Assembly: GCA_030533415.1 (NCBI GenBank)
Contig: JAUNJE010000017.1
Span: 1 to 49,732, forward strand
Origin: Eubacteriales bacterium
GTDB lineage: Bacteria; Bacillota; Clostridia; Oscillospirales; Oscillospiraceae
DNA length: 49,732 bases
Direction: 5' to 3'
The notes under the pieces were generated by a model, which was not told the DNA's origin, made no database searches, and worked only from the letters and a program-made list of their open reading frames with translations. How positions within the stretch are numbered: the first letter of the stretch is position 1; every line of letters begins with the position of its first letter. Position numbers and translations under genes: made by a program. Of the stretch, positions 1 to 32,188 are shown piece by piece.

Positions 1-1327
1 CTTCCGTCTCCCGGCGCAGGAAACGCCTTCCATAGAATATTATGGATACTGCGGTACCGGTGACCCAGCCAATGGGCCAGGAGAGCCAGATGCCGGTGCT
101 TCCCAGCATCCCTGACAGAAAATATGCCAGCCCCACCCGCAAGATCAGGTCCGTAAACGTCGCAGCCATAAATTGCCGCATCATCCCCGCGCCCCGCAGC
201 ACGCCGTCGGTAACCAGTTTGGCGGAAACCAGGAAATAAAAAGGCGACACAATTTTCAGGAACATAATGCCGGTATTCACCGCATCCGCTGTGCCGTTTT
301 CCAGGAAAATGCTGGTCAAAAGCCTGCCCAGGAAGAAATAGGCGGCTGTCAGCGGGATGCACAGCAGCCACACCATCCCCAGGCCCGCTTTATACCCCTG
401 GTGAACCCGCTGGGGCCGGTCCGCCCCCAGATTCTGGGCGGTATAATTGGACACGCCGTTTCCCAGTGTGGTAAAGGACGTAATGACCAGATTGTTCAGC
501 TTGACCGCCGCCGAATAACCGGCCATTACGCTGGAACCGAAGGTATTGATAATGCCCTGCAAAATCATATTGCCAACAGAAATAAAACTCTGCTGCAGCA
601 TGCTGGGTATGGCCACCACCGCGATTGCCCCCAGCATCCGCCAGGAAAACAGCGCTGCCGTTTCCGTCCGGATGGAGGCCAGCCGCCGGAACACCACGAA
701 GATTGCCAGCACACAGCTGACCCCCTGGCAGATCAGCGTCGCCCAGGCGACGCCCGCCACGCCCATCTGAAACGCCGTGACAAACAGGATATCCGCGCCG
801 ATATTGGACAATGACGAGACCACCAGGAAAATAAAGGGCGTCCTGGAGTCCCCCAAAGCGGAGAAAATCCCCGTTGCCACATTATAATAGAACACAAAAG
901 GCAGGCTGAGAATATAGATCTCCAGATAGCTCCGGGAATCGGCAAATACATTGTCCGGCGTGTGAATCAGCCGCAGCAGCCCATTCAGACCGGTCAGTCC
1001 CGCCAGCATCAGCACCAGGCAGAGTACGCCGCTGGCAATCAGCGTTGTGTACACCGCCGTTTTCATATCGCCATACTGCTTCGCGCCGAATTTCTGGGCC
1101 GTTATCACAGAGCAGCCGATATTGCAGCCAAATGCCACGGCGATAAACAGGAGGGTCACCTCATATCCGTTTCCAACAGCGGCCAGGGCTTCCTCTCCGA
1201 TAAACTGTCCCGCCACCAGGCTGTCGGCAATGTTGTAAAGCTGCTGGAAAATGATGCTGCCAAACAGCGGCAGGCAAAACTGCCACAGCACCTTCGACGG
1301 CCTTCCTACGGTCAGATCCCGGTTCAT
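1..1327 (-). CDS. MATE family multidrug/sodium antiporter, 3' end cut by window edge
   Basis: The reading frame opens at 1327 and stays open to the left edge, giving 442 codons of a protein that continues outside the window. The translation is hydrophobic, with about eleven or twelve evident membrane segments. It starts MNRDLTVGRPSKVLWQF and continues with FGSIIFQQLYNIADSLVAG, the typical first helices of MATE transporters. A second similar half (SFISVGNMILQGIINTFGS) matches the family's internal repeat. MATE proteins use Na+ or H+ gradients to export cationic or aromatic compounds; the substrate cannot be told here. The gene is divergent from a LysR regulator with 118 bp between the starts, so that regulator is a plausible controller of the pump. 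Confidence 0.9.
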   Translation of the reverse strand, partial: MNRDLTVGRPSKVLWQFCLPLFGSIIFQQLYNIADSLVAGQFIGEEALAAVGNGYEVTLLFIAVAFGCNIGCSVITAQKFGAKQYGDMKTAVYTTLIASGVLCLVLMLAGLTGLNGLLRLIHTPDNVFADSRSYLEIYILSLPFVFYYNVATGIFSALGDSRTPFIFLVVSSLSNIGADILFVTAFQMGVAGVAWATLICQGVSCVLAIFVVFRRLASIRTETAALFSWRMLGAIAVVAIPSMLQQSFISVGNMILQGIINTFGSSVMAGYSAAVKLNNLVITSFTTLGNGVSNYTAQNLGADRPQRVHQGYKAGLGMVWLLCIPLTAAYFFLGRLLTSIFLENGTADAVNTGIMFLKIVSPFYFLVSAKLVTDGVLRGAGMMRQFMAATFTDLILRVGLAYFLSGMLGSTGIWLSWPIGWVTGTAVSIIFYGRRFLRRETE

Positions 1328-1401
1328 TTTTATCACCCCATTTTTATTCTTTCGCCTGATGGATTATACCCCTTGACACTGGGCCTTGTAAAATGTATAG
1401 T

Positions 1402-2382: not shown

Positions 2383-2422
2383 CAGCCCGCTATGCACGGT
2401 ACGCATAGCGGGCTGGTTTTTC
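2383..2422 (+). terminator. Rho-independent terminator after lysR
   Basis: CAGCCCGCTATGC pairs perfectly with GCATAGCGGGCTG across a 7-base loop and is followed by GTTTTT. It closes the lysR transcript. It also lies directly behind the stop codon of the convergent ANTAR gene and may act both ways. Confidence 0.9.
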
Positions 2423-3006
2423 TATGAATAGGTTTTGATAATCCCCAAAGCAATCTCCCGGCGGCTGACACAGCGGTCCATGGCCTGCTTTTCAATGTGG
2501 TGGTGGGCATCGGTCTCCGTCATTTTCAGCTGCTCGATGAGAATCCATTTGGCCCGGTTCACCAGACGGATTTCCTCCATCTTTTCCTCCACGGTGGTGG
2601 CTTTCTTTTCCAGCCTGCGCAGCCGCTCCCGGGCGGAGGCCATCCATCTCAGGCCCTGTTGGAGGACCTGGGCAGGCGTAGGCTTCGCCAGGGTAAAGAC
2701 CCCCTGGGGCGTGACCTTTTCACTGGTCTGCTCATACAGCTCCGAACGTACCAGAAGCAGCACCACCGTACCGGATTTGTCCTCCGCGTCGATGGCCAAG
2801 CGGATGCCTGAATCATCCGGCAGCGGCGCGTTGACGATGACGAAATCATAGGCCCGGTCAATCAACTCCCGGCGGGCCGCTGCCACATTGCCGACGAAGG
2901 TGACCGGATAATAGTCCGATCCCGGGAGCATCTGGGCGAGGATATCATTGAATTTTTGTGCCGCGGAAACCACAAGCACGCTGTAGGTTTGCGCGCTGAA
3001 CATCAT
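2422..3006 (-). CDS. ANTAR-domain RNA-binding regulator with a degenerate receiver domain
   Basis: The 194-residue protein has a receiver-like fold (about residues 8-120) followed by a short coiled region and a C-terminal ANTAR domain (about 135-190; EEKMEEIRLVNRAKWILIEQ and REIALGIIKTYS). ANTAR proteins bind hexaloop hairpins in nascent RNA and prevent termination. In the receiver, the phospho-acceptor position is Asn59 (DFVIVNAPLPDDSG) and the acidic pair near the N terminus is replaced by VVSAA, so phosphorylation looks unlikely; the switch-region Lys (TLAKPT) is kept. The gene lies 38 bp downstream of the short glutamine synthetase on the same strand, and the nearby glnN leader carries a matching RNA target. 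AAAGGAGGG is upstream; ATG at 3006 or 3003. Confidence 0.88.
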   Translation of the reverse strand: MMFSAQTYSVLVVSAAQKFNDILAQMLPGSDYYPVTFVGNVAAARRELIDRAYDFVIVNAPLPDDSGIRLAIDAEDKSGTVVLLLVRSELYEQTSEKVTPQGVFTLAKPTPAQVLQQGLRWMASARERLRRLEKKATTVEEKMEEIRLVNRAKWILIEQLKMTETDAHHHIEKQAMDRCVSRREIALGIIKTYS

Positions 3007-3044: not shown

Positions 3045-4253
3045 TCACTCCTTGCAGAAATACGCGACCAGGGACCGGGGCAGGTGCTGTTCCAGAAACG
3101 CGCTGGAAGCAGCTTTCCGGGAGGCCGTGGTCAGCGAAAGCGGAAGAGTCCGCAGGTGGGACAAATCACGCTGGGCCGCAGTAAAGAGGTTGACATTGGC
3201 CTCTTCCGGCAGGGACAGTCCGTTTTGAATCCCGTCCAGTCCCGCCCAGATCAGCAGCGCAAAGGCAATGTAGGGATTGGCCGTGCAGTCAGGGCTGCGC
3301 AGCTCACAGCGGCGGTATTCCCCGGACGCGGCGGGAACACGGATCAGCTGGGAGCGGTTGTCGCTTGACCAGGAGATATATTTCGGCGCCTTGTGAGAAC
3401 CCAGACGCTGGTAAGAACCCTCGGAAGGATTCAAAAACAGGGTCATATCCTCCACCCGGTTCAAAATTCCCGCCATCATCTGCTGCATCAGGTTCTCTCC
3501 CCTGCCCTGGACAGACATGTTGATATGGAAGCCGCTGCCGGGCTTTCCGGGCAGGGGCTTCGGTGAAAAATCGGCATACAGGCCGTTTCTGGCCGCAATG
3601 GTCTTTACCACCGTCAGGAAGGTCACTGCGTTGTCCGCAGCGGACAGGGCATCGGAATAGCGGAAATCGATCTCATTCTGGCCGGGGCCTTCCTCGTGAT
3701 GGGACGATTCCGGCTGGATCCCCATCTGCTCCAGCGTCAGGCAGATTTCCCGGCGGACATTTTCGCACCTGTCCTCCGGCGAAACATCCATATACGCCGC
3801 GTTGTCATAGGGAATGCCGGTGGGCTCTCCGGCCTCGTCCAGCCTGAATAGATAAAACTCCATCTCAGAGCCAAAGGCAAAGGCAAATCCCGCATTGGCC
3901 GCATCCGCGACCGCCTTTTTCAGAAGGCTGCGGGTATCGTGGGCAAAGGGCGTGCCGTCAGGATGGGAAATGGCGCAGAACATCCGCACCACCCGGCCAT
4001 GCTCCGGCCGCCAGGGCAGCACCGCAATGGTCGCGGGGTCCGGATGCAGGAAAAGGTCGGAATGCACCTCATCCCCAAAGCCCGCAATGGCGGAGGCGTC
4101 GATGGCAATGCCGTATTTGAACGCCCGCTCCAGTTCCTGGGGCATGATGGAGACATTCTTGGGTCTGCCCAGGACATCACAAAATGCCAGGCGGATGAAC
4201 TTCACATCTTCCTCCTGGATATACTGTATGACCTCTTGCGGTGTATATTTCAT
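3045..4253 (-). CDS. glnA: Glutamine synthetase, short type I form
   Basis: Makes glutamine from glutamate, ammonia and ATP. The start at 4253 (MKYTPQEVIQYIQEEDVKF) gives 402 residues; the upstream in-frame extension reads as non-coding. Visible motifs are the N-terminal beta-grasp (residues about 15-95), the metal-binding pair in SEMEFYLF (Glu130, Glu132), HHEEGPGQNEIDF, GSGFHINMS (about 239-247), NPSEGSYQRL and RCELRSPDCTANPYIAF. The protein ends at LVAYFCKE, about 30-40 residues before the end of Bacillus-type GlnA, so the usual tail is missing without any sign of a frameshift. It is followed by the ANTAR gene and is divergent from glnN. A housekeeping or a regulatory/specialised role are both possible. 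Confidence 0.9.
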   Translation of the reverse strand: MKYTPQEVIQYIQEEDVKFIRLAFCDVLGRPKNVSIMPQELERAFKYGIAIDASAIAGFGDEVHSDLFLHPDPATIAVLPWRPEHGRVVRMFCAISHPDGTPFAHDTRSLLKKAVADAANAGFAFAFGSEMEFYLFRLDEAGEPTGIPYDNAAYMDVSPEDRCENVRREICLTLEQMGIQPESSHHEEGPGQNEIDFRYSDALSAADNAVTFLTVVKTIAARNGLYADFSPKPLPGKPGSGFHINMSVQGRGENLMQQMMAGILNRVEDMTLFLNPSEGSYQRLGSHKAPKYISWSSDNRSQLIRVPAASGEYRRCELRSPDCTANPYIAFALLIWAGLDGIQNGLSLPEEANVNLFTAAQRDLSHLRTLPLSLTTASRKAASSAFLEQHLPRSLVAYFCKE

Positions 4254-4288
4254 AATGGCCCAACTCTCTTTCCTTTGCTGCGCAATCT

Positions 4289-4312
4289 GCAGCGGGGAAA
4301 AAGCCCCGCCGC
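4289..4312 (-). other. GC-rich hairpin in the glnA leader
   Basis: GCAGCGGGG pairs with CCCCGCCGC across a 6-base loop (nine pairs, one G-T). It lies about 36 bp upstream of the glnA start in its leader. It has no following T-run in either direction, so it is not a simple terminator. The loop does not have the A1/G4 pattern expected for an ANTAR target. Confidence 0.45.
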
Positions 4313-4519
4313 CTGTAAATCTGACATTCTTGTTATACCATACCTGCGGCGGATTTTCCAGATATTTGTCAAAGAAATTGAAAAAATGCCGAACCGGTCC
4401 CGGCGGTCCCCATGCCGCCATGGCACCCTATGCGCAAAACCGCCAGGGCATTCCTCTGCTGCCGGGCTTGGGTGTTTGTCAATCTTCACAATCCTAAAAA
4501 ACTTTTTTTGTGCAGGGTG

Positions 4520-4548
4520 TTGACAAACCGGATTTTCTGGTGTAGAAT
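4520..4548 (+). promoter_or_regulatory. Promoter of glnN
   Basis: TTGACA at 4520-4525 and TAGAAT at 4543-4548 are separated by exactly 17 bp, a near-consensus vegetative promoter. The expected start near 4555 is three or so bases before the ANTAR-type hairpin. The nine-base sequence CGGATTTTC inside the spacer (4529-4537) also occurs upstream of glnA (4350-4358). Confidence 0.85.
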
Positions 4549-4557
4549 ACAGCACAT

Positions 4558-4609
4558 AAAGGCAAGGACGTCTTTGAGCAGTGGCTCATAGACTCCTTGT
4601 CTCTTTTTT
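4558..4609 (+). promoter_or_regulatory. glnN leader attenuator: ANTAR-type hexaloop hairpin overlapping an intrinsic terminator
   Basis: Two mutually exclusive folds are visible. The first is a 6-bp hairpin, AAAGGC/GTCTTT, closing the hexaloop AAGGAC (4558-4575), which has A at loop position 1 and G at position 4, the pattern known for ANTAR targets. The second is a long terminator: 4560-4579 pairs with 4584-4602 around a loop AGTG (one mismatch, one bulge), followed by six T (4604-4609). The hexaloop hairpin lies within the terminator's 5' arm, so protein binding to it would block termination. A second hexaloop hairpin, normal in the described dual-hairpin motif, was not found upstream of it within the predicted transcript. 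The ANTAR protein encoded at 2422-3006 is the obvious partner. Confidence 0.7.
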
Positions 4610-4668
4610 ATTTCCGGCAGCTCTGGGGCGGGGCCTCCCTCCGGCGCCGCCTCAGAGTCTGCCGAAAT
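4610..4668 (+). other. Very long hairpin in the glnN leader just before the ribosome site
   Basis: ATTTC-GGCAG-CTCTG-GGCGG on the left arm pairs with the corresponding right arm ending CTGCCGAAAT at 4668. The stem has about 25 pairs, with a bulged base on each side, one mismatch and a 7-base loop. It ends eight bases before the AAGGAG site at 4676-4681. No T-run follows. It could protect the 5' end, tune translation, or be a remnant of an intergenic repeat. Confidence 0.55.
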
Positions 4669-4686
4669 CCAGAATAAGGAGAATGA

Positions 4687-6789
4687 ATGATTATGGGTAC
4701 TGTGTCCGATTATTTTGGCTGTCTGGTATTTGACGACCGCGAAATGAAGGCAAATTTAAGCGCAAATGTATACCGTTCCCTGAGAAAGACCATCGACCAG
4801 GGTGCGAAGCTGGATGCTTCCGTGGCCAACGCCGTGGCCGCCGCCATGAAGGATTGGGCCGTTGCCAAGGGCGCAACGCACTATACCCATTGGTTCCAGC
4901 CTCTGACCGGCATCACCGCCGAAAAGCACGACAGCTTCATTTCTCCCGCTCCGGATGGGGGCGTCATCATGGATTTCAGCGGCAAGGAGCTGATCAAGGG
5001 CGAGCCTGACGCCTCCTCCTTCCCCTCCGGCGGTCTGCGGGCGACCTTTGAAGCCCGGGGCTACACCGCCTGGGACCCCACCTCTTATGCGTTCATCAAG
5101 GGCAAGACCCTGTGCATCCCCACCGCGTTCTGCTCCTATGGCGGCGAGGCGCTGGACAAAAAGACCCCGCTGCTGCGCTCCATGGAGGCCCTGAACCGCC
5201 AGGCCATGCGCATTCTGAAGCTCTTCGGCAATAAGGACGTCAAATGCGTCAGGACCTCCGTCGGCCCCGAGCAGGAATATTTCCTGGTGCCGAAGGAGCT
5301 GTATGAACAGCGCGAAGACCTGATCTACACCGGCCGCACCCTTTTCGGCGCCAAGCCTCCCAAGGGCCAGGAGATGGACGACCACTACTTCGGCGTCATC
5401 AAGCCCCGTGTGGCCGCGTACATGGCAGACCTGAACGAGGAGCTTTGGAAGCTGGGTATCCTGGCGAAAACCGAGCATAACGAGGTGGCGCCTTCCCAGC
5501 ACGAGCTGGCTCCCATCTACACCACTACCAACATTGCCACCGACCACAACCAGCTGACCATGGAGATCATGCAGAAGGTTGCCGCGAAGCACGGCCTGGT
5601 GTGCCTGCTGCATGAGAAGCCCTTTGCCGGCGTCAACGGCTCCGGCAAGCACAACAACTGGTCCATCGCCACCAACACCGGCGTAAACCTGCTGTCCCCC
5701 GGCGAGACCCCCTATGAAAACGCCCAGTTCCTGCTGTTCCTGTGCGCCGTCATCAAGGCCGTGGACGATTACCAGGATCTGCTGCGTCTCAGCGTTGCCA
5801 CCGCCGGCAACGACCACCGTCTGGGCGCCAACGAAGCGCCTCCTGCCGTGGTATCCATCTTCCTGGGCGACGAGCTTTCCGCCATTCTGGATGCCATCGA
5901 AAACGACAAGCCCTATGCCGGTACCCACAAAACCACCATGAAGCTGGGCGTGGATGTGCTTCCCCGGTTTGCCCGGGACACCACCGACCGCAACCGCACC
6001 TCTCCTTTCGCCTTCACCGGCAACAAGTTTGAGTTCCGCATGCTTGGCTCCTCCAACTCCATTGCCTGCGCCAACATCATGCTGAACGCCGCCGTAGCCG
6101 AGTCCCTGAAAATCTATGCCGACCGGCTGGAGAATGCCGAAGACTTTGAAACCGCCCTCCACGCCATGATCAAGAAAACCATCAAGGACCACAAGCGCAT
6201 TCTCTTCAACGGAAACGGCTATGACGAGGCCTGGATCAAGGAGGCCGTGGAGGTTCGCGGCCTGTGTAACTACCCCACCACCCCCGACTGCATGCCCCAT
6301 CTGCTGGATAAAAAGAATGTGGATATGCTCACCAGCCACAAGATATTCTCCATGGCGGAGCTGGAATCCCGCGTGGAGATCATGCTGGAAAATTACTGCA
6401 AGACCGTGGTCATCGAGGCAAACACCATGGTGGATATGTCCAGAAAGCAGATCCTCCCCGCTGTGGAAGGCTATGCCGCCGAGCTGGCCGGAACCATCGC
6501 CGCCAAGCGGGCCGTGGCTTCCAATATCGCCTGCGGTTACGAAACCGGGCTGCTTGGCAAGCTGTCCGTGCTGACCGACCAGATCGCCGTGAAGGCTGAC
6601 GAGCTGGAAGCGGCCGTAGTGGATCTGAAGAACACCTCCAGCGTCATCGAAGAATCCTACGCCATCCGGGATACACTGCTGGGCAAAATGGCAGCCCTTC
6701 GGGCCGTGGCCGACGAGGCCGAGACCCAGACCGCAAAGAAATACTGGCCCTTCCCCACCTACGGCGAACTGCTCTTCGGCGTCCGGTAA
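4687..6789 (+). CDS. glnN: Glutamine synthetase type III
   Basis: The 700-residue length and sequence match GSIII, the large dodecameric glutamine synthetase common in Bacteroidetes and Clostridia. The N-terminal part ([14 protein letters not shown]) is family typical. Active-site regions include [15 protein letters not shown] (about 196-210), [33 protein letters not shown] and [15 protein letters not shown]. The C-terminal GSIII extension runs to [14 protein letters not shown] lies five bases before the ATG at 4687; ATG 4693 is an alternative. It is the second glutamine synthetase here and the one with the attenuated leader, so it is the better candidate for nitrogen-dependent control. A terminator follows at 6838-6886. 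Confidence 0.96.
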
Positions 6790-6837: not shown

Positions 6838-6886
6838 AACCATGGGAGAGTCTCCTGTACCGGGGCTCTCCCACAGGTTGGTTTTT
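6838..6886 (+). terminator. Terminator after glnN
   Basis: TGGGAGAG pairs with CTCTCCCA. The stem extends with AACC/GGTT over a small internal loop and is followed by five T at 6882-6886. It separates glnN from asnB. Confidence 0.7.
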
Positions 6887-6931
6887 CCAGAAATTGCGGG
6901 AATCTTTTATAGAAAGATTTTTTGAAATAGA

Positions 6932-7038: not shown

Positions 7039-8616
7039 ATGTGTTCTATCATCGGTTATTGCGGCAAACCTGCCGATATCCAGAAATTCATTGCCGGCTT
7101 TGACAAAACCCTCTCCCGGGGCCCTGACGATTCCCGGATCGTGGATGTGGGGCAGGGGCTTTTCGGCTTTCACCGGCTTTCCATTATGGGCCTGCATCCG
7201 CAGGGCATGCAGCCCTTCGCCCTGAATGGGAACTTCGTGGTCTGCAACGGTGAGATCTACGGCTTTGAAAAATTGCGGGAGGAATTGTCCGGGGAATACA
7301 CCTTTGCCAGCGAATCGGACTGCGAGGTCTTACTGCCCATGTATGAAAAATACGGCGTTGGCATGTTCGCCATGCTGGATGCGGAATTTGCCTGCATCCT
7401 CTACGACGGGAAACGCAAGCAGTTTCTCGCCGCCCGGGATCCCATCGGTATCCGCCCCCTGTATTACGGCTACGACCAAAACGGCACCATCGTCTTTGCC
7501 AGCGAGCCGAAGAATCTGACGGAATTGGTGGATCAGGTCCTCCCCTTCCCTCCCGGCCACTACTATCAGGACGGGGCTTTCGTCTGCTACTGCGACATTG
7601 CGGCCGTGGATGCCTATCATCCCCACGATCTGGAAATGGTCTGCCGCAACATTAACGAAAAGCTCGTTGCCGGCGTCCGCAAGCGCCTGGTGGCCGACGC
7701 CAAGGTTGGCTTCCTTCTCAGCGGCGGCCTGGATTCCTCCCTGGTCTGCGCCATCGCCGCCCGGGAAAGCGGGCAGCCCATCAAAACTTTCGCCATTGGC
7801 ATGAGCGGCGACGCCATTGACCTGAAATACGCGAAGCAAGTGGCCGATTATATCGGCAGTGACCATACGGAGGTCATCATTTCCAAGGAAGATGTACTGG
7901 CCGCCTTAGAGCCTGTCATAGAGCTGCTGGGAACCTTCGATATCACCACCATCCGTGCCAGCATCGGCATGTATCTGGTGTGCAAATACATCCACGAGAA
8001 CACCGATATCCGGGTGCTGCTTACAGGAGAGATCTCCGACGAGCTGTTCGGCTATAAATATACCGATTTTGCCCCCTCCGCGGAAGAATTCCAGAAGGAG
8101 GCCCAGAAGCGGCTCCGGGAGCTGCATATGTACGACGTGCTCCGGGCCGACCGCTGCATCAGCGTCAATTCTCTGGAGGCCAGGGTTCCCTTTGGTGACC
8201 TGGACTTTGTCAAATACGTCATGGCCATTGACCCGGAGCAGAAGCTGAACAAGTACGGCAAGGGCAAATATTTGCTGCGCCATGCCTTTGATGGGGATTA
8301 CCTCCCGCATGACATCCTTTGGCGGGAAAAGGCCGCCTTCTCCGATGCCGTGGGCCATTCCATGGTGAACTATCTGAAGGAATTCGCGGAAGGCCGCTAT
8401 ACCGAATCTGAATTCCAGCAAAAGCGGGCCAAATATTCCCACGCCCGTCCCTTCACCAAGGAATCTCTGCTCTACCGCGAAATTTTTGAGAAATACTATC
8501 CCGGCCAGGGGCAGATGATCGTGGATTTCTGGATGCCGAACAAGCACTGGGAGGGCTGCAACGTCAACGATCCCTCTGCCCGGGTCCTGGCAAACTATGG
8601 TGACAGCGGCAAATAA
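7039..8616 (+). CDS. asnB: Asparagine synthase, glutamine-hydrolysing
   Basis: Converts aspartate to asparagine with ATP and the amide nitrogen of glutamine. From the ATG at 7039 (TAGGAGGA upstream) the protein has 525 residues. Cys2 (MCSIIGYCG) is the class II glutaminase nucleophile after Met removal. CNGEIYG (69-75) belongs to the glutamine pocket, and the C-terminal synthetase domain carries the PP-loop SGGLDSS (228-234) and LTGEISDELFGY. Upstream in-frame codons fall in the repeat region and are not coding. It lies between glnN and the purine/pyrimidine amidotransferase operon on the same strand, so it consumes the product of its neighbours. No clear terminator follows. Confidence 0.95.
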   Translation: MCSIIGYCGKPADIQKFIAGFDKTLSRGPDDSRIVDVGQGLFGFHRLSIMGLHPQGMQPFALNGNFVVCNGEIYGFEKLREELSGEYTFASESDCEVLLPMYEKYGVGMFAMLDAEFACILYDGKRKQFLAARDPIGIRPLYYGYDQNGTIVFASEPKNLTELVDQVLPFPPGHYYQDGAFVCYCDIAAVDAYHPHDLEMVCRNINEKLVAGVRKRLVADAKVGFLLSGGLDSSLVCAIAARESGQPIKTFAIGMSGDAIDLKYAKQVADYIGSDHTEVIISKEDVLAALEPVIELLGTFDITTIRASIGMYLVCKYIHENTDIRVLLTGEISDELFGYKYTDFAPSAEEFQKEAQKRLRELHMYDVLRADRCISVNSLEARVPFGDLDFVKYVMAIDPEQKLNKYGKGKYLLRHAFDGDYLPHDILWREKAAFSDAVGHSMVNYLKEFAEGRYTESEFQQKRAKYSHARPFTKESLLYREIFEKYYPGQGQMIVDFWMPNKHWEGCNVNDPSARVLANYGDSGK

Positions 8617-8751
8617 GTGCATATGGCTTCGGATCGTCATGGCCGCCGGCAGGGCTATGGCGGTCCAAAGCGGATATTCATGAAAATGCACAGACTTCCG
8701 CACCAGAGAAGGTGGTTTCCGCTCATAAATGGAGAATAAAACGTATTTATC

Positions 8752-8780
8752 TTGCATTTTCTCATGGACTACTCTATAAT
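8752..8780 (+). promoter_or_regulatory. Promoter of the purC-carB operon
   Basis: TTGCAT (8752-8757) and a perfect TATAAT (8775-8780) are separated by 17 bp. The predicted start near 8787 gives a leader of about 73 bases before purC. No purine riboswitch, PRPP-sensing motif or terminator is recognisable in that leader. The rest of the 243-bp asnB-purC gap holds only weak hairpins. Confidence 0.85.
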
Positions 8781-8859
8781 TGATGTGTAAATTTCCGGCA
8801 GGCCCTGCCTGTCCAGAGAATATTGGACCAGCACATCAAATACATTGGGAGGAAACAAC

Positions 8860-9573
8860 ATGGAAAAGCTAGAACAGCTCTACGAAGGCAAGGCAAAGAA
8901 GGTCTTCGCCACCGAAGATCCCGCGCTTCTGATCGTAGACTACAAAGATGATGCCACCGCATTTAACGGCCTGAAAAAGGGCACCATCGTGGGCAAGGGC
9001 GTTATCAACAACCAGATGAGCAACCGCCTGATGGCGAAGCTGGAGCGCTGCGGTATCCCTACCCACTTCGTCAAGGAACTGTCCCCCCGGGAAACCTTGG
9101 TGAAAAAGGTCAGCATCGTTCCTTTGGAAGTCATCATCCGCAACATCTCCGCCGGTTCCTTCTCCAAGCGCTACGGTGTGGAAGAGGGCATTGTCTTCGA
9201 CCAGCCCACCATTGAGTTCTCTTATAAAAATGACGACCTGGGGGATCCCCTGCTGAACACCCGCCATGCCCTGGCCCTGAAGCTGGCCACCCCCGAGGAA
9301 ATCAGCACCATCGAAAAATACGCCTTCCGGGTCAATGAGATCCTGAAGGAATTTTGGAAAAGCTGCGGCGTGACGTTGGTGGACTTCAAGCTGGAATTCG
9401 GCCGCCTCAGCGACGGCTCCATCGTTCTGGCCGATGAGATCAGCCCCGACACCTGCCGGCTGTGGGACGCCAAGACCGGCGAAAAGCTGGACAAGGACCG
9501 TTTCCGCCGCGATATGGGCGGTGTGGAAGAGGCCTACGCTGAAATCATGAGCCGGCTGGAAGCCCATCTGTAA
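8860..9573 (+). CDS. purC: SAICAR synthetase (phosphoribosylaminoimidazolesuccinocarboxamide synthase)
   Basis: Joins aspartate to CAIR with ATP in purine synthesis. The start at 8860 is set by GGGAGGA seven bases upstream and gives 237 residues, the family's usual length; a TTG at 8845 lies inside the ribosome site. Signature segments are [10 protein letters not shown] at the N terminus, [28 protein letters not shown] (about residues 88-104) and [14 protein letters not shown]. It is the first gene of the long operon and sits 14 bp before purA. Separating purC from purE/purL/purD and pairing it with purA and purB groups the two aspartate-adding steps with the lyase that serves both. Confidence 0.97.
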
Positions 9574-9587
9574 CGGGAGGAAGCGAA

Positions 9588-10862
9588 ATGGCAAACGCGG
9601 CAATCGTAGGCATCAACTGGGGCGATGAAGGCAAGGGCCGAATGGTTGATCTGCTGACCCAGGATTATGATGTTGTCATCCGCTATCAGGGCGGCGGAAA
9701 CGCAGGCCATACCGTCATCAATGAATATGGCAAATTCGCGCTGCATCTGCTGCCCTCCGGCATTTTCCGCAAGAGGGTTGTGAACATCCTGGGAAACGGC
9801 GTTGCCCTGGACCCGGAAAACCTTTGGTTGGAAATCGAAGAGGTGGTACGCAAGGGCGTGCCCATCACCCCGGAAAACCTGAAGATCAGTGACCGGGCGT
9901 CTTTGCTGCTGCCCTGGCACCGGGCGCTGGACGGTCTGGAAGAGGCCCGGTTGGCGGACAAGAAATTCGGCTCCACCAAGCAGGGCATTGCGCCTTTCTA
10001 TTCCGACAAATACCAGAAAAAAACCATCCTGGCCGGCGAGCTGCTGTACCCAGAGCACCTGAAAGAGCATCTGCAGGACCTGATGGAGTGGAAAAATCTG
10101 ACGCTGACCAAGGTTTACGGCGCACAGCCCGTGACTATGGCGGAGCTGGAGGGCTGGATCGACCATTACTGTGCCAAGATCAAGCCCTTTATCTGCGATA
10201 CCGGCGTTTTCCTGCGCGATGCCCAGAAGGCTGGGAAAAACATCCTGTTTGAGGCTCAGTTAGGTGCACTGCGGGATCTGGACTATGGCATCCATCCCTA
10301 TACCACCTCTTCCAATGCCATTGCCGCCTATGCCCCTGTGGGTTCCGGCCTGCCGTCTGCAAAGGTCGGCGAGGTCATCGGCGTGGTGAAGGCCTACTCC
10401 ACCTGCGTGGGCGAAGGCCCCTTTGTATGCGAGCTGTTTGGACCGGAAGCGGACGCCCTGCGGGAAGCCGGCTTTGAGTACGGCGCAAAAACCGGACGTC
10501 CCCGCCGGGTTGGCCCCATCGACATTGTGGCCACCCGCTACGGCGTCCAGGTTCAGGCGGCCACCAACATCGCCCTGACCAAGCTGGACGTACTCAGCTA
10601 CTTGGATAAAATCCCCGTCTGTGCCCATTATAAAATGGGAGAAACCATAACCGACGAATTCCCCTTCCCCGCCGTTTTGGGCAGCGCCCAGCCGGTGATC
10701 GAATACATGGACGGCTGGAAATGCGATATTTCCGGCATCCGCAGCTGGGATGACCTGCCGGAAGCGGCGCGCAAATATGTGGAATACATCGAAGCCCAAA
10801 TTGGCTGCCATATCGGCTATGTATCCGTCGGTCCCGAGCGGGACAGCATCATCATTCGATAA
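9588..10862 (+). CDS. purA: Adenylosuccinate synthase
   Basis: Adds aspartate to IMP using GTP, the committed step to AMP. The protein has 424 residues with GDEGKG at 12-17 (catalytic Asp13) and GNAGHT with His41, matching the E. coli catalytic pair. KTGRPRRVGP and LTKLDVL lie in the C-terminal half. The segment FEAQLGALRDLDYGIHPYT differs somewhat from the usual GAQG-type version, so this is a divergent PurA subtype, but all key residues are kept. GGGAGG precedes the ATG. It is 11 bp before purB, as expected for consecutive enzymes. Confidence 0.96.
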   Translation: MANAAIVGINWGDEGKGRMVDLLTQDYDVVIRYQGGGNAGHTVINEYGKFALHLLPSGIFRKRVVNILGNGVALDPENLWLEIEEVVRKGVPITPENLKISDRASLLLPWHRALDGLEEARLADKKFGSTKQGIAPFYSDKYQKKTILAGELLYPEHLKEHLQDLMEWKNLTLTKVYGAQPVTMAELEGWIDHYCAKIKPFICDTGVFLRDAQKAGKNILFEAQLGALRDLDYGIHPYTTSSNAIAAYAPVGSGLPSAKVGEVIGVVKAYSTCVGEGPFVCELFGPEADALREAGFEYGAKTGRPRRVGPIDIVATRYGVQVQAATNIALTKLDVLSYLDKIPVCAHYKMGETITDEFPFPAVLGSAQPVIEYMDGWKCDISGIRSWDDLPEAARKYVEYIEAQIGCHIGYVSVGPERDSIIIR

Positions 10863-10873
10863 GGAGAACGCCC

Positions 10874-12289
10874 ATGACAGACAGATATGAATCTCCCTTA
10901 AGCTCCCGGTACGCCTCGGACTACATGCTGAGGCTGTTTTCCATGGACACCCGGATTCAGACCTGGCGGAAGCTGTGGGTCGCTCTGGCCCGGGCGGAAC
11001 AGCAGCTGGGCCTGCCCGTCTCGGAAGCGCAGGTGAAAGAGCTGGAAGCCCATATTACGGATATTGACTATGCCTGCGCCGCCGCCCGGGAAAAAGAAGT
11101 ACGCCATGATGTAATGGCCCACGTCTACGCCTACGGCAAGGCCGCCCCCTCTGCGGCGGGCATCATCCACTTAGGCGCCACCAGCTGCTATGTCACGGAC
11201 AATGCCGATATCGTCCTCTACCGGGACGGCCTGAAATACCTCCGCGGGGAACTGCTGAAGGTCGTTGCAAACCTGGCGTCCTTCGCGGAAAGCTACAAGG
11301 CCATGCCCACTCTGGGCTACACCCACTACCAGCCCGCCCAGCTGGTGACCGTCGGCAAGCGGGCATCTTTGTGGATGCAGGATTTTCTGTCCGACCTGGA
11401 AGAGCTGGATTTTGTGATCGGCAGCATGAAGTTCCTGGGCTGCCGCGGCACCACCGGAACGGAAGCCAGCTTCCTGGAGCTGTTCGGCGGCGATACCGCC
11501 AAGATCGACGAGATGAACCGCCGGATCAGTGCCGAATTTGGCTTTGACAGGTGCTTCCCCGTCTGCGGCCAGACCTATCCCCGGAAGCTGGACAGCCGCA
11601 TCCTGAATTGCCTGTCCTCCATCGCCCAGAGCTGCTACCGGATGGCAAATGACATCCGCCTGCTGCAGCATGACCGTCAGGTGGAAGAGCCTTTCGAAAA
11701 GAACCAGATTGGTTCCTCCGCCATGGCCTACAAACGAAATCCCATGCGCTCCGAACGGATCTGCAGCCTTTCCCGCTACCTGATGGCGGACGCTTTGAAC
11801 GCTCCCATGACCGCCTCCACCCAATGGCTGGAGCGCACGCTGGATGACTCCGCGAACCGCCGCATCTCCATGCCCGAGGGCTTCCTCTGTGCCGACGCCA
11901 TTTTGCGGCTGGCCCAGAATGTGACCAACGGACTGCATGTCAACGAAAAGATCGTGGAAAAAACCGTCCGGGAATACCTGCCCTTCATCGCTACGGAAAA
12001 CCTGATGATGGAAGGCGTCAAGCGGGGCGGCGACCGCCAGCAGCTGCACGAGATCATCCGCACCTGCTCCATGGACGCTACGGCACGGATGAAAGCCGGC
12101 GAAAGCTGGGACCTGCTGGCCGACCTGGCAGTTCACCCGGAATTTGGCATGAGCAAAGCGGAAATGGAAGCGGTTCTGGATCCGGCGCTGTACACCGGCC
12201 GCTGTGCGGACCAGGTGACGGCGTTCCTGGAAACCGTTCGGCCGCTGATTGCCGGTATTGCCCAAGCGGAAGCACAGATTAACATTTAA
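10874..12289 (+). CDS. purB: Adenylosuccinate lyase
   Basis: Releases fumarate from SAICAR and from adenylosuccinate, so it acts on the products of both purC and purA next to it. It has 471 residues. The fumarase/aspartase superfamily loop SSAMAYKRNP is at 281-290 and includes the catalytic Ser. HLGATSCYVTDN and TLGYTHYQPAQLVTVGKR form the other active-site regions. AAGGAG lies just before the ATG. Downstream, an 88-bp gap to guaA holds a GGGGCGGA/TTCCGCCCC hairpin without a T-run, perhaps an mRNA-processing or partial-stop site within the operon. Confidence 0.97.
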   Translation: MTDRYESPLSSRYASDYMLRLFSMDTRIQTWRKLWVALARAEQQLGLPVSEAQVKELEAHITDIDYACAAAREKEVRHDVMAHVYAYGKAAPSAAGIIHLGATSCYVTDNADIVLYRDGLKYLRGELLKVVANLASFAESYKAMPTLGYTHYQPAQLVTVGKRASLWMQDFLSDLEELDFVIGSMKFLGCRGTTGTEASFLELFGGDTAKIDEMNRRISAEFGFDRCFPVCGQTYPRKLDSRILNCLSSIAQSCYRMANDIRLLQHDRQVEEPFEKNQIGSSAMAYKRNPMRSERICSLSRYLMADALNAPMTASTQWLERTLDDSANRRISMPEGFLCADAILRLAQNVTNGLHVNEKIVEKTVREYLPFIATENLMMEGVKRGGDRQQLHEIIRTCSMDATARMKAGESWDLLADLAVHPEFGMSKAEMEAVLDPALYTGRCADQVTAFLETVRPLIAGIAQAEAQINI

Positions 12290-32040: not shown

Positions 32041-32055
32041 ATAGGCAACTGAACA

Positions 32056-32167
32056 GTATCTTCAGGGCGGGGTGAAATTCCCCACCGGCGGTATAGTCCG
32101 CGACCGCGCAAGCGTTGAACCGGTGAAACTCCGGTACCGACAGTATAGTCTGGATGGAAGAAGATAC
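32056..32167 (+). promoter_or_regulatory. FMN riboswitch (RFN element)
   Basis: The closing stem GTATCTTC/GAAGATAC, the conserved AGGGCGGGGTGAAATTCCCC, CCGGCGGTATAGTCCGCGA, and the downstream CCGACAGTATAGTCTGGATGG are all present in the standard order. FMN binding is expected to favour the following terminator and shut off riboflavin uptake. The P-loop helix between the two halves (ACCGGTGAAACTCCGGT) is intact. Confidence 0.97.
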
Positions 32168-32188
32168 GCAAGGCACTTGCGTTTATTT

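Follow-up and report, generated by a model that had tools for sequence, protein, structure and literature searches.

What decides whether RNA polymerase reaches glnN at a locus where a near-consensus promoter is followed by an intrinsic terminator, and where a small hairpin of the kind recognised by ANTAR-domain proteins shares its strand with the 5' arm of that terminator? We examined this question in the window, the whole stretch of 49,732 nt of contig DNA analysed here, and in the corresponding leaders of related genomes. From the sequence comparisons that follow, we consider it quite likely that the glnN leader is a protein-controlled transcription attenuator working in the manner of ANTAR antitermination, with one hexaloop placed where the transcript is predicted to begin.

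The elements of the locus are listed in Table 1. A first-pass annotation had reported a near-consensus promoter, an AAGGAC hexaloop with A at position 1 and G at position 4 (A1/G4) and an intrinsic terminator ending in six T before glnN, and all three were recovered. The glnN transcript is predicted to start at about 4554-4556, give or take a few bases. The hairpin (UAAAGGC[AAGGAC]GUCUUUG, 7 bp, loop at 4564-4569) had a folding energy of -4.8 kcal/mol and a z-score of -3.3. For the terminator fold of the leader the values were -26.4 kcal/mol and -6.3, with 0/200 shuffles equally good. The hairpin had been described as lying wholly within the 5' arm of the terminator, which held for 4560-4576 and failed for 4557-4559, three positions outside the arm. 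In folds of the window leader, the hexaloop hairpin and the terminator stem were mutually exclusive, and the leader with the hairpin forced attained -9.4 kcal/mol at best, so that the hairpin, being far weaker than the terminator, would need a helper to win.

Table 1. Features of the glnN region in the window (positions from the first letter of the window)
Feature	Position	Strand	Evidence or remark
ANTAR protein gene (194 aa), proposed antiterminator	2422..3006	-	Pfam ANTAR (PF03861) 55.6 bits, cut-off 27.3
Type I glutamine synthetase gene	3045..4253	-	Pfam Gln-synt_C 286.5 bits; just upstream of the ANTAR gene, same strand
Promoter TTGACA-17-TAGAAT	4520..4548	+	11/12 consensus matches (consensus scan)
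Single A1/G4 hexaloop hairpin, candidate ANTAR site and antiterminator	4557..4576	+	Fold; conservation and covariation in relatives
Intrinsic terminator	4560..4609	+	Stem 4560-4602, then C, then six T at 4604-4609
GC-rich, very stable hairpin between terminator and glnN start	4615..4664	+	Fold of 4555-4687
glnN, type III glutamine synthetase, proposed controlled gene	4687..6789	+	Pfam GSIII_N 267.7 bits

Searches within the genome singled out this leader. A simple DNA pattern matched the own genome 25 times, compared to 24 for the reversed control, and reading the flanks of the 25 matches revealed a promoter and a terminator at the glnN site only. A model, R1, for which 51 of the 65 units described below served as input and which includes the terminator structure, gave its best match in this genome at 4556-4609, and at E<=0.1 it returned only the glnN leader and its opposite-strand mirror. 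The GC-rich hairpin, sought as a repeat, had no further copy in the own genome. Rfam release 15, run over the window, gave one match above the gathering threshold, an FMN riboswitch at 32054-32169 (+, 120.4 bits), and none at the glnN leader, for which a relaxed threshold yielded below-gathering matches only; 12 of the 80 relative loci, also compared with Rfam, gave 0 matches.

As the first reading had proposed, an ANTAR protein is encoded 1.6 kb from the leader beside the other glutamine synthetase, whose start codon at 4253 is our choice within the open reading frame 3045-4421. It was the only ANTAR gene found in this genome, which is estimated to be 88% complete. The receiver-like N-terminal part of the protein scored 24.1 bits for Response_reg, below the cut-off of 30.2, and in the alignment Asn59 occupies the phospho-acceptor place, so that there is no phospho-Asp. 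Among nine aligned proteins, this place was filled by Asp in L059 only, and the six encoded beside a type I synthetase had Asn (5) or His (1). Of the seven EutV RNA-contact residues given in PMC8934654, K149, E160 and M172 are kept in the window protein as K153, E164 and M176, K143 and K147 are replaced by Arg (R147, R151), R142 by Ile146 and Y164 by His168, the last of these being also the residue of AmiR at that place. We fetched 20 ANTAR regions of relatives, out of 48 ANTAR rows, and in 19 of them the ANTAR gene directly follows a same-strand type I synthetase gene (the exception being L221). The same pair occurs in the window and at L017, L027, L036, L043 and L067, and was absent at L059, L060 and L063. 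The type I synthetase is a possible signal partner of the ANTAR protein. A unit controlling the glnA-ANTAR operon itself was sought in 24 regions and mostly not found: an A1/G4 hairpin was present in 5/24, those at L017 and L043 probably being mirror images of the glnN terminator and those at L216 and L067 looking like chance. Only L208 has a promoter before the hairpin, so that the regulator's own operon stands mostly outside the switch.

The leaders compared were those of the window and of the best 80 of at least 590 glnN relatives, and all 81 were examined. A unit was called where an A1/G4 hexaloop hairpin with at least four pairs (2 G-C) had its 3' part pairing into a terminator before a T-rich tail. 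Units were present in 52/81 leaders compared to 6/243 dinucleotide shuffles of the same leaders, while 29/81 leaders had no called unit; the opposite strand, used as a control, gave 12/81, some of which resemble terminator mirror images or real divergent units. Thirteen leaders carried two called units, with A1-to-A1 distances of 63-179 nt and a terminator of its own for each unit.

The absence of stem covariation in relatives had been named in advance as a result that would speak against the ANTAR reading, and in our alignments the hexaloop stem covaries. The definition of a unit had required A1, G4 and four stem pairs; among features that were not selected, the closing C-G pair was found in 65/65 units, A2 in 64/65 and a purine at loop position 5 in 65/65. 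The alignment designated A2 (22 columns) had a covariation score of 0.340 compared to 0.184 in shuffles, with 0/500 as high, and of at most 0.132 when the partner strand was slid; one of five covariation measures, based on pairs changed on both sides, was not above shuffles (115/500). A second set, meant to escape circular selection, was anchored on a promoter of at least 10/12 matches and the motif CA[AT]NGRNG 8-25 nt past the -10, with no stem asked beyond the closing pair. The motif stood at this place in 47 of the 59 leaders whose promoter qualified, compared to 1-11 in shifted-offset controls, and among the 46 distinct anchored sequences pair 3 formed in 45 and pair 4 in 43 (0/5000 shuffles as high) and pair 5 in 32 (24/5000 as high), with pairs 2, 6 and 7 not above shuffles.

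The unit also goes with ANTAR genes, which were found in 67/80 relatives' genomes (39/40 and 28/40 in two batches) and in the window's own. Among the 81 glnN leaders, 50 had both unit and ANTAR gene, 2 the unit only (L055 and L073, no ANTAR gene being found), 18 the ANTAR gene only and 11 neither (Fisher 1.3e-4), and in a class survey of 148 genomes drawn from the class, with R1 at E<=0.003, the corresponding counts were 28, 1, 45 and 74 (Fisher 1.9e-9), both tests treating related genomes as independent and therefore overstating independence. R1 matched 29 of the survey genomes and 73 yielded an ANTAR gene, which in one case scored under the curated cut-off, so that ANTAR was carried by 28/29 R1-positive compared to 45/119 R1-negative genomes. 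The single R1-only genome, G123, had five R1 matches, no ANTAR gene found and a stated contamination of 6%. The 45 ANTAR-bearing survey genomes without an R1 match are a counterpoint to the ANTAR reading, as are the 29 leaders lacking a called unit, the cases L055, L073 and G123, the two EutV contact residues replaced by Ile146 and His168, and the restriction of R1 to the glnN site in the own genome. Ten of the 18 ANTAR-only glnN loci have an R1 match on the glnN strand at E<=0.02, and in 7/10 the match precedes the gene or genes before glnN, namely amtB of amtB-pyrG-glnN (L040, L048, L050), pyrG of pyrG-glnN (L041), asnA adjoining glnN (L078, L079) and an aminotransferase gene adjoining glnN (L038), because of which the unit seems to shift to the head of the transcription unit; at L045, L059 and L060 the match is at glnN itself. 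On the opposing side, two of the 11 loci with neither unit nor ANTAR gene (L061, L065) have an R1 match on the glnN strand at the same threshold.

Leaders lacking an ANTAR gene bear on a rival explanation, a plain intrinsic terminator or RNA-only attenuator in which the hexaloop merely arises from the terminator sequence and no ANTAR protein takes part. Five such leaders (L054, L061, L064, L065, L074) retain a promoter and what by eye is a terminator-like hairpin, their hexaloop stems being poor, with 1-3 pairs, which fits this explanation, as does the strength of the window terminator by itself in the fold. Within the anchored set, however, imperfect stems were concentrated where ANTAR is missing (3/5 ANTAR-less leaders, L054, L061 and L064, compared to 2/42 others, L042 and L045; Fisher 0.006, again taking related genomes as independent), and the association with ANTAR genes argues against a terminator that works without the protein. 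The stem pairs moreover covary, although a terminator needs no match between the two stem strands, and the closing C-G is constant along with A1 and G4 (the latter two being search conditions) in a loop that keeps a fixed place after the promoter. We therefore regard a plain terminator as improbable.

The genes behind the unit in relatives point towards nitrogen. Outside the own genome, the class survey yielded 29 R1 loci in 28 genomes (G123 twice), and 24/29 lie before nitrogen or glutamine genes, with names taken from references named from Pfam: glnN 12, amtB 6, asnA 2, and purC, gltB, gdh and a CobQ-like glutamine amidotransferase gene 1 each; the remaining targets were citrate synthase (1) and four genes unrelated or without assignment (G084, G117, G162, G173). 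A second set of 46 rows was hand-picked from 104 (36 genomes chosen for the glnN unit) plus 45 class-survey rows, leaving out most glnN rows, mirror-strand rows and most weak rows. Nitrogen or glutamine genes followed 33/46 of these sites, some of which are two units of one leader: amtB 8, glnN 7, purC 4, pyrG 3, gdh 3, amidotransferase 2, and gltB, purF, nadE, asnB, guaA and asnA 1 each. The other 13/46, two of them without any hexaloop hairpin, precede other or unassigned genes, including those of a MATE transporter, citrate synthase and a LuxR-type regulator. A promoter was recognised at 27/46 sites, and for 24 of these the distance from the -10 to A1 was 13-19 nt. Taken together, stem covariation, co-occurrence with ANTAR genes and position before nitrogen and glutamine genes in relatives make an ANTAR-controlled attenuator, as first proposed, the best reading of the leader.

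Several observations were made beside these targets. At L138, a full promoter-hexaloop-terminator unit (G001:C24:30652-30715, -) stands before a MATE transporter gene near glnN, and a MATE gene is also present in the window at 2-1363 (-). At L041 (1718-1776, -, the strand divergent from glnN) and L171 (1766, +), class II glutamine amidotransferase genes of the glutamate synthase type are preceded by A1/G4 hairpins whose A1 follows a promoter at 9-11 nt. Downstream of glnN, the window carries asnB, purC, purA and purB (7039-12289, +), of which asnB and purC have hexaloop units of their own in relatives, and between glnN and asnB lies an inverted repeat, gggagag...ctctccc, followed by a T-rich stretch (6843-6890, +), terminator-like by eye.

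The first-pass annotation had also taken the arrangement to be the one known from the nasR and eutV types, and here the comparison departs from it. PMC3369931 describes two hairpins with a eut linker of 5-12 nt, loss of induction when that linker is shortened or lengthened, and weaker binding of EutV to a lone hairpin than to the pair; the targets listed there before glutamine and glutamate synthase genes all come from the dual-hairpin model, the mechanism of which is summarised in PMC3369936. In PMC8934654, one hexaloop is the minimal ANTAR binding motif, but termination is held to be averted only if the protein contacts each of the two; antitermination is lost when the linker between the hairpins is extended, and bioinformatic work on single-hexaloop targets is called for. 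Two stems are also required according to PMC8164766. The glnN leader shares with these dual-hexaloop antiterminators (eutP/EutV, nasF/NasR, amiE/AmiR) an A1/G4 hairpin overlapping the terminator 5' arm, an ANTAR protein and nitrogen genes, but it has one hexaloop, not two joined by a 5-12 nt linker, the hairpin lies at the predicted 5' end, and relatives with two units have a terminator for each hexaloop. With the paired hexaloops missing, it would be a variant of ANTAR antitermination that does not fully belong to the motif as published.

The annotation was right that a single hexaloop is visible, since a further A1/G4 hairpin, sought up to 60 nt from that in the window, was not found; what it had treated as an oddity recurs in relatives. 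Transcription typically starts about 7 nt past the -10. A promoter was recognised for 42/52 first units, and for 38/42 the -10 is followed by A1 at a distance of 13-19 nt (the other four at 21, 23, 35 and 46), so that the hairpin would begin at the first RNA bases. The classical motif might still be present if its P1 hairpin had been missed, through a start further upstream or an unusual P1 loop; the characterised targets do have two hexaloops (PMC3369931, PMC8934654), and no promoter was recognised by the scan for 10/52 first units. The A1 spacing, however, leaves no room for P1, which would overlap the promoter, and a partner at the spacing of the dual-hexaloop motif (a linker of 5-12 nt for eut and of 2-25 nt by actinobacterial curation) was not at hand upstream: only 4/65 units have another A1/G4 hairpin within 60 nt, none of them upstream at the published linker length, two lying upstream beyond it (L005 and L016, A1-to-A1 49 and 58 nt) and two 15 nt downstream inside the terminator loop region (L017 and L056). 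A missed P1 is accordingly very unlikely, and the single 5'-terminal hexaloop is, on the evidence of these leaders, a conserved design that differs from the dual-hexaloop motif in the literature, on which EutV depends. At L017, positions 3930-3983 form a near-perfect inverted repeat, so that R1 matches on both strands, and the loop closed by the terminator stem is a further A1/G4 hexaloop.

For the ANTAR-controlled attenuator, we propose the following course of events. Once transcription has begun at the predicted start, the nascent leader would by default fold into the terminator (4560-4602) and stop, leaving glnN off. Alternatively, the first ~20 RNA bases could fold into the weak A1/G4 hexaloop hairpin, and the ANTAR protein encoded in the divergent glnA-ANTAR pair would, when active, bind the single hexaloop and hold the hairpin, removing much of the terminator 5' arm so that polymerase would continue into glnN. 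A single hexaloop for each terminator appears sufficient, and the two hexaloop-terminator units in series in some relatives may act as two gates. Hairpins at the 5' end can stabilise messages. An effect mainly on RNA stability or translation, with ANTAR acting on the would-be 5'-terminal hairpin and not on the terminator, could draw on the statement in PMC3369931 that ANTAR targets without terminators may act on translation, but it is hardly credible here given that the hairpin and the terminator stem of the window exclude each other and that relatives show this layout before other genes as well, albeit with R1 built with the terminator structure.

Other known systems resemble parts of this scheme. 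PMC4676874 places an ANTAR gene in a cluster with GS-GOGAT genes in C. thermocellum and cites control of glutamine synthetase by NitR and an antisense RNA in Clostridium acetobutylicum; the likeness is an antiterminator-type regulator linked to a clostridial glutamine synthetase, while in the window the proposed target is a hairpin in the leader of a type III synthetase gene. The AmiR protein of Pseudomonas (PDB 1qo0) shares the non-phosphorylatable receiver domain (PMC8934654), besides the His noted above, but AmiR responds to the amide-binding AmiC. The cyanobacterial glnA RNA motif, as presented in PMC2864571, is likewise a leader element before nitrogen genes, sometimes in tandem, but a riboswitch candidate, not a protein-controlled hairpin. 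The BglG/LicT antiterminators, as outlined in PMC3369936, also use a single protein-stabilised hairpin that excludes a terminator, with another protein family and RNA element. Among the titles and abstract openings listed in literature searches, none describes a single-hexaloop attenuator or such a regulon, and an earlier account may exist.

More tentatively, these leaders might represent a distinct class of ANTAR switch for the nitrogen and glutamine economy of many Clostridia, with one 5'-terminal hexaloop per terminator, a non-phosphorylatable receiver and the type I synthetase as a glutamine or ammonium sensor, an extension that we hold to be possible and well short of probable. In Bacillus, TnrA and GlnR are controlled by glutamine synthetase, which offers a comparison for the sensor reading. 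Nature seems to offer a single-hexaloop case in the glnN leaders, where the RNA is compact, the cognate protein is a likely one and relatives have a likely regulon of glutamine synthetase, glutamate synthase, glutamate dehydrogenase, ammonium transporter-PII, asparagine synthetases and glutamine amidotransferases. Whether one hexaloop suffices for antitermination becomes directly testable with these leaders, and our findings suggest a nitrogen control circuit for many Clostridia.
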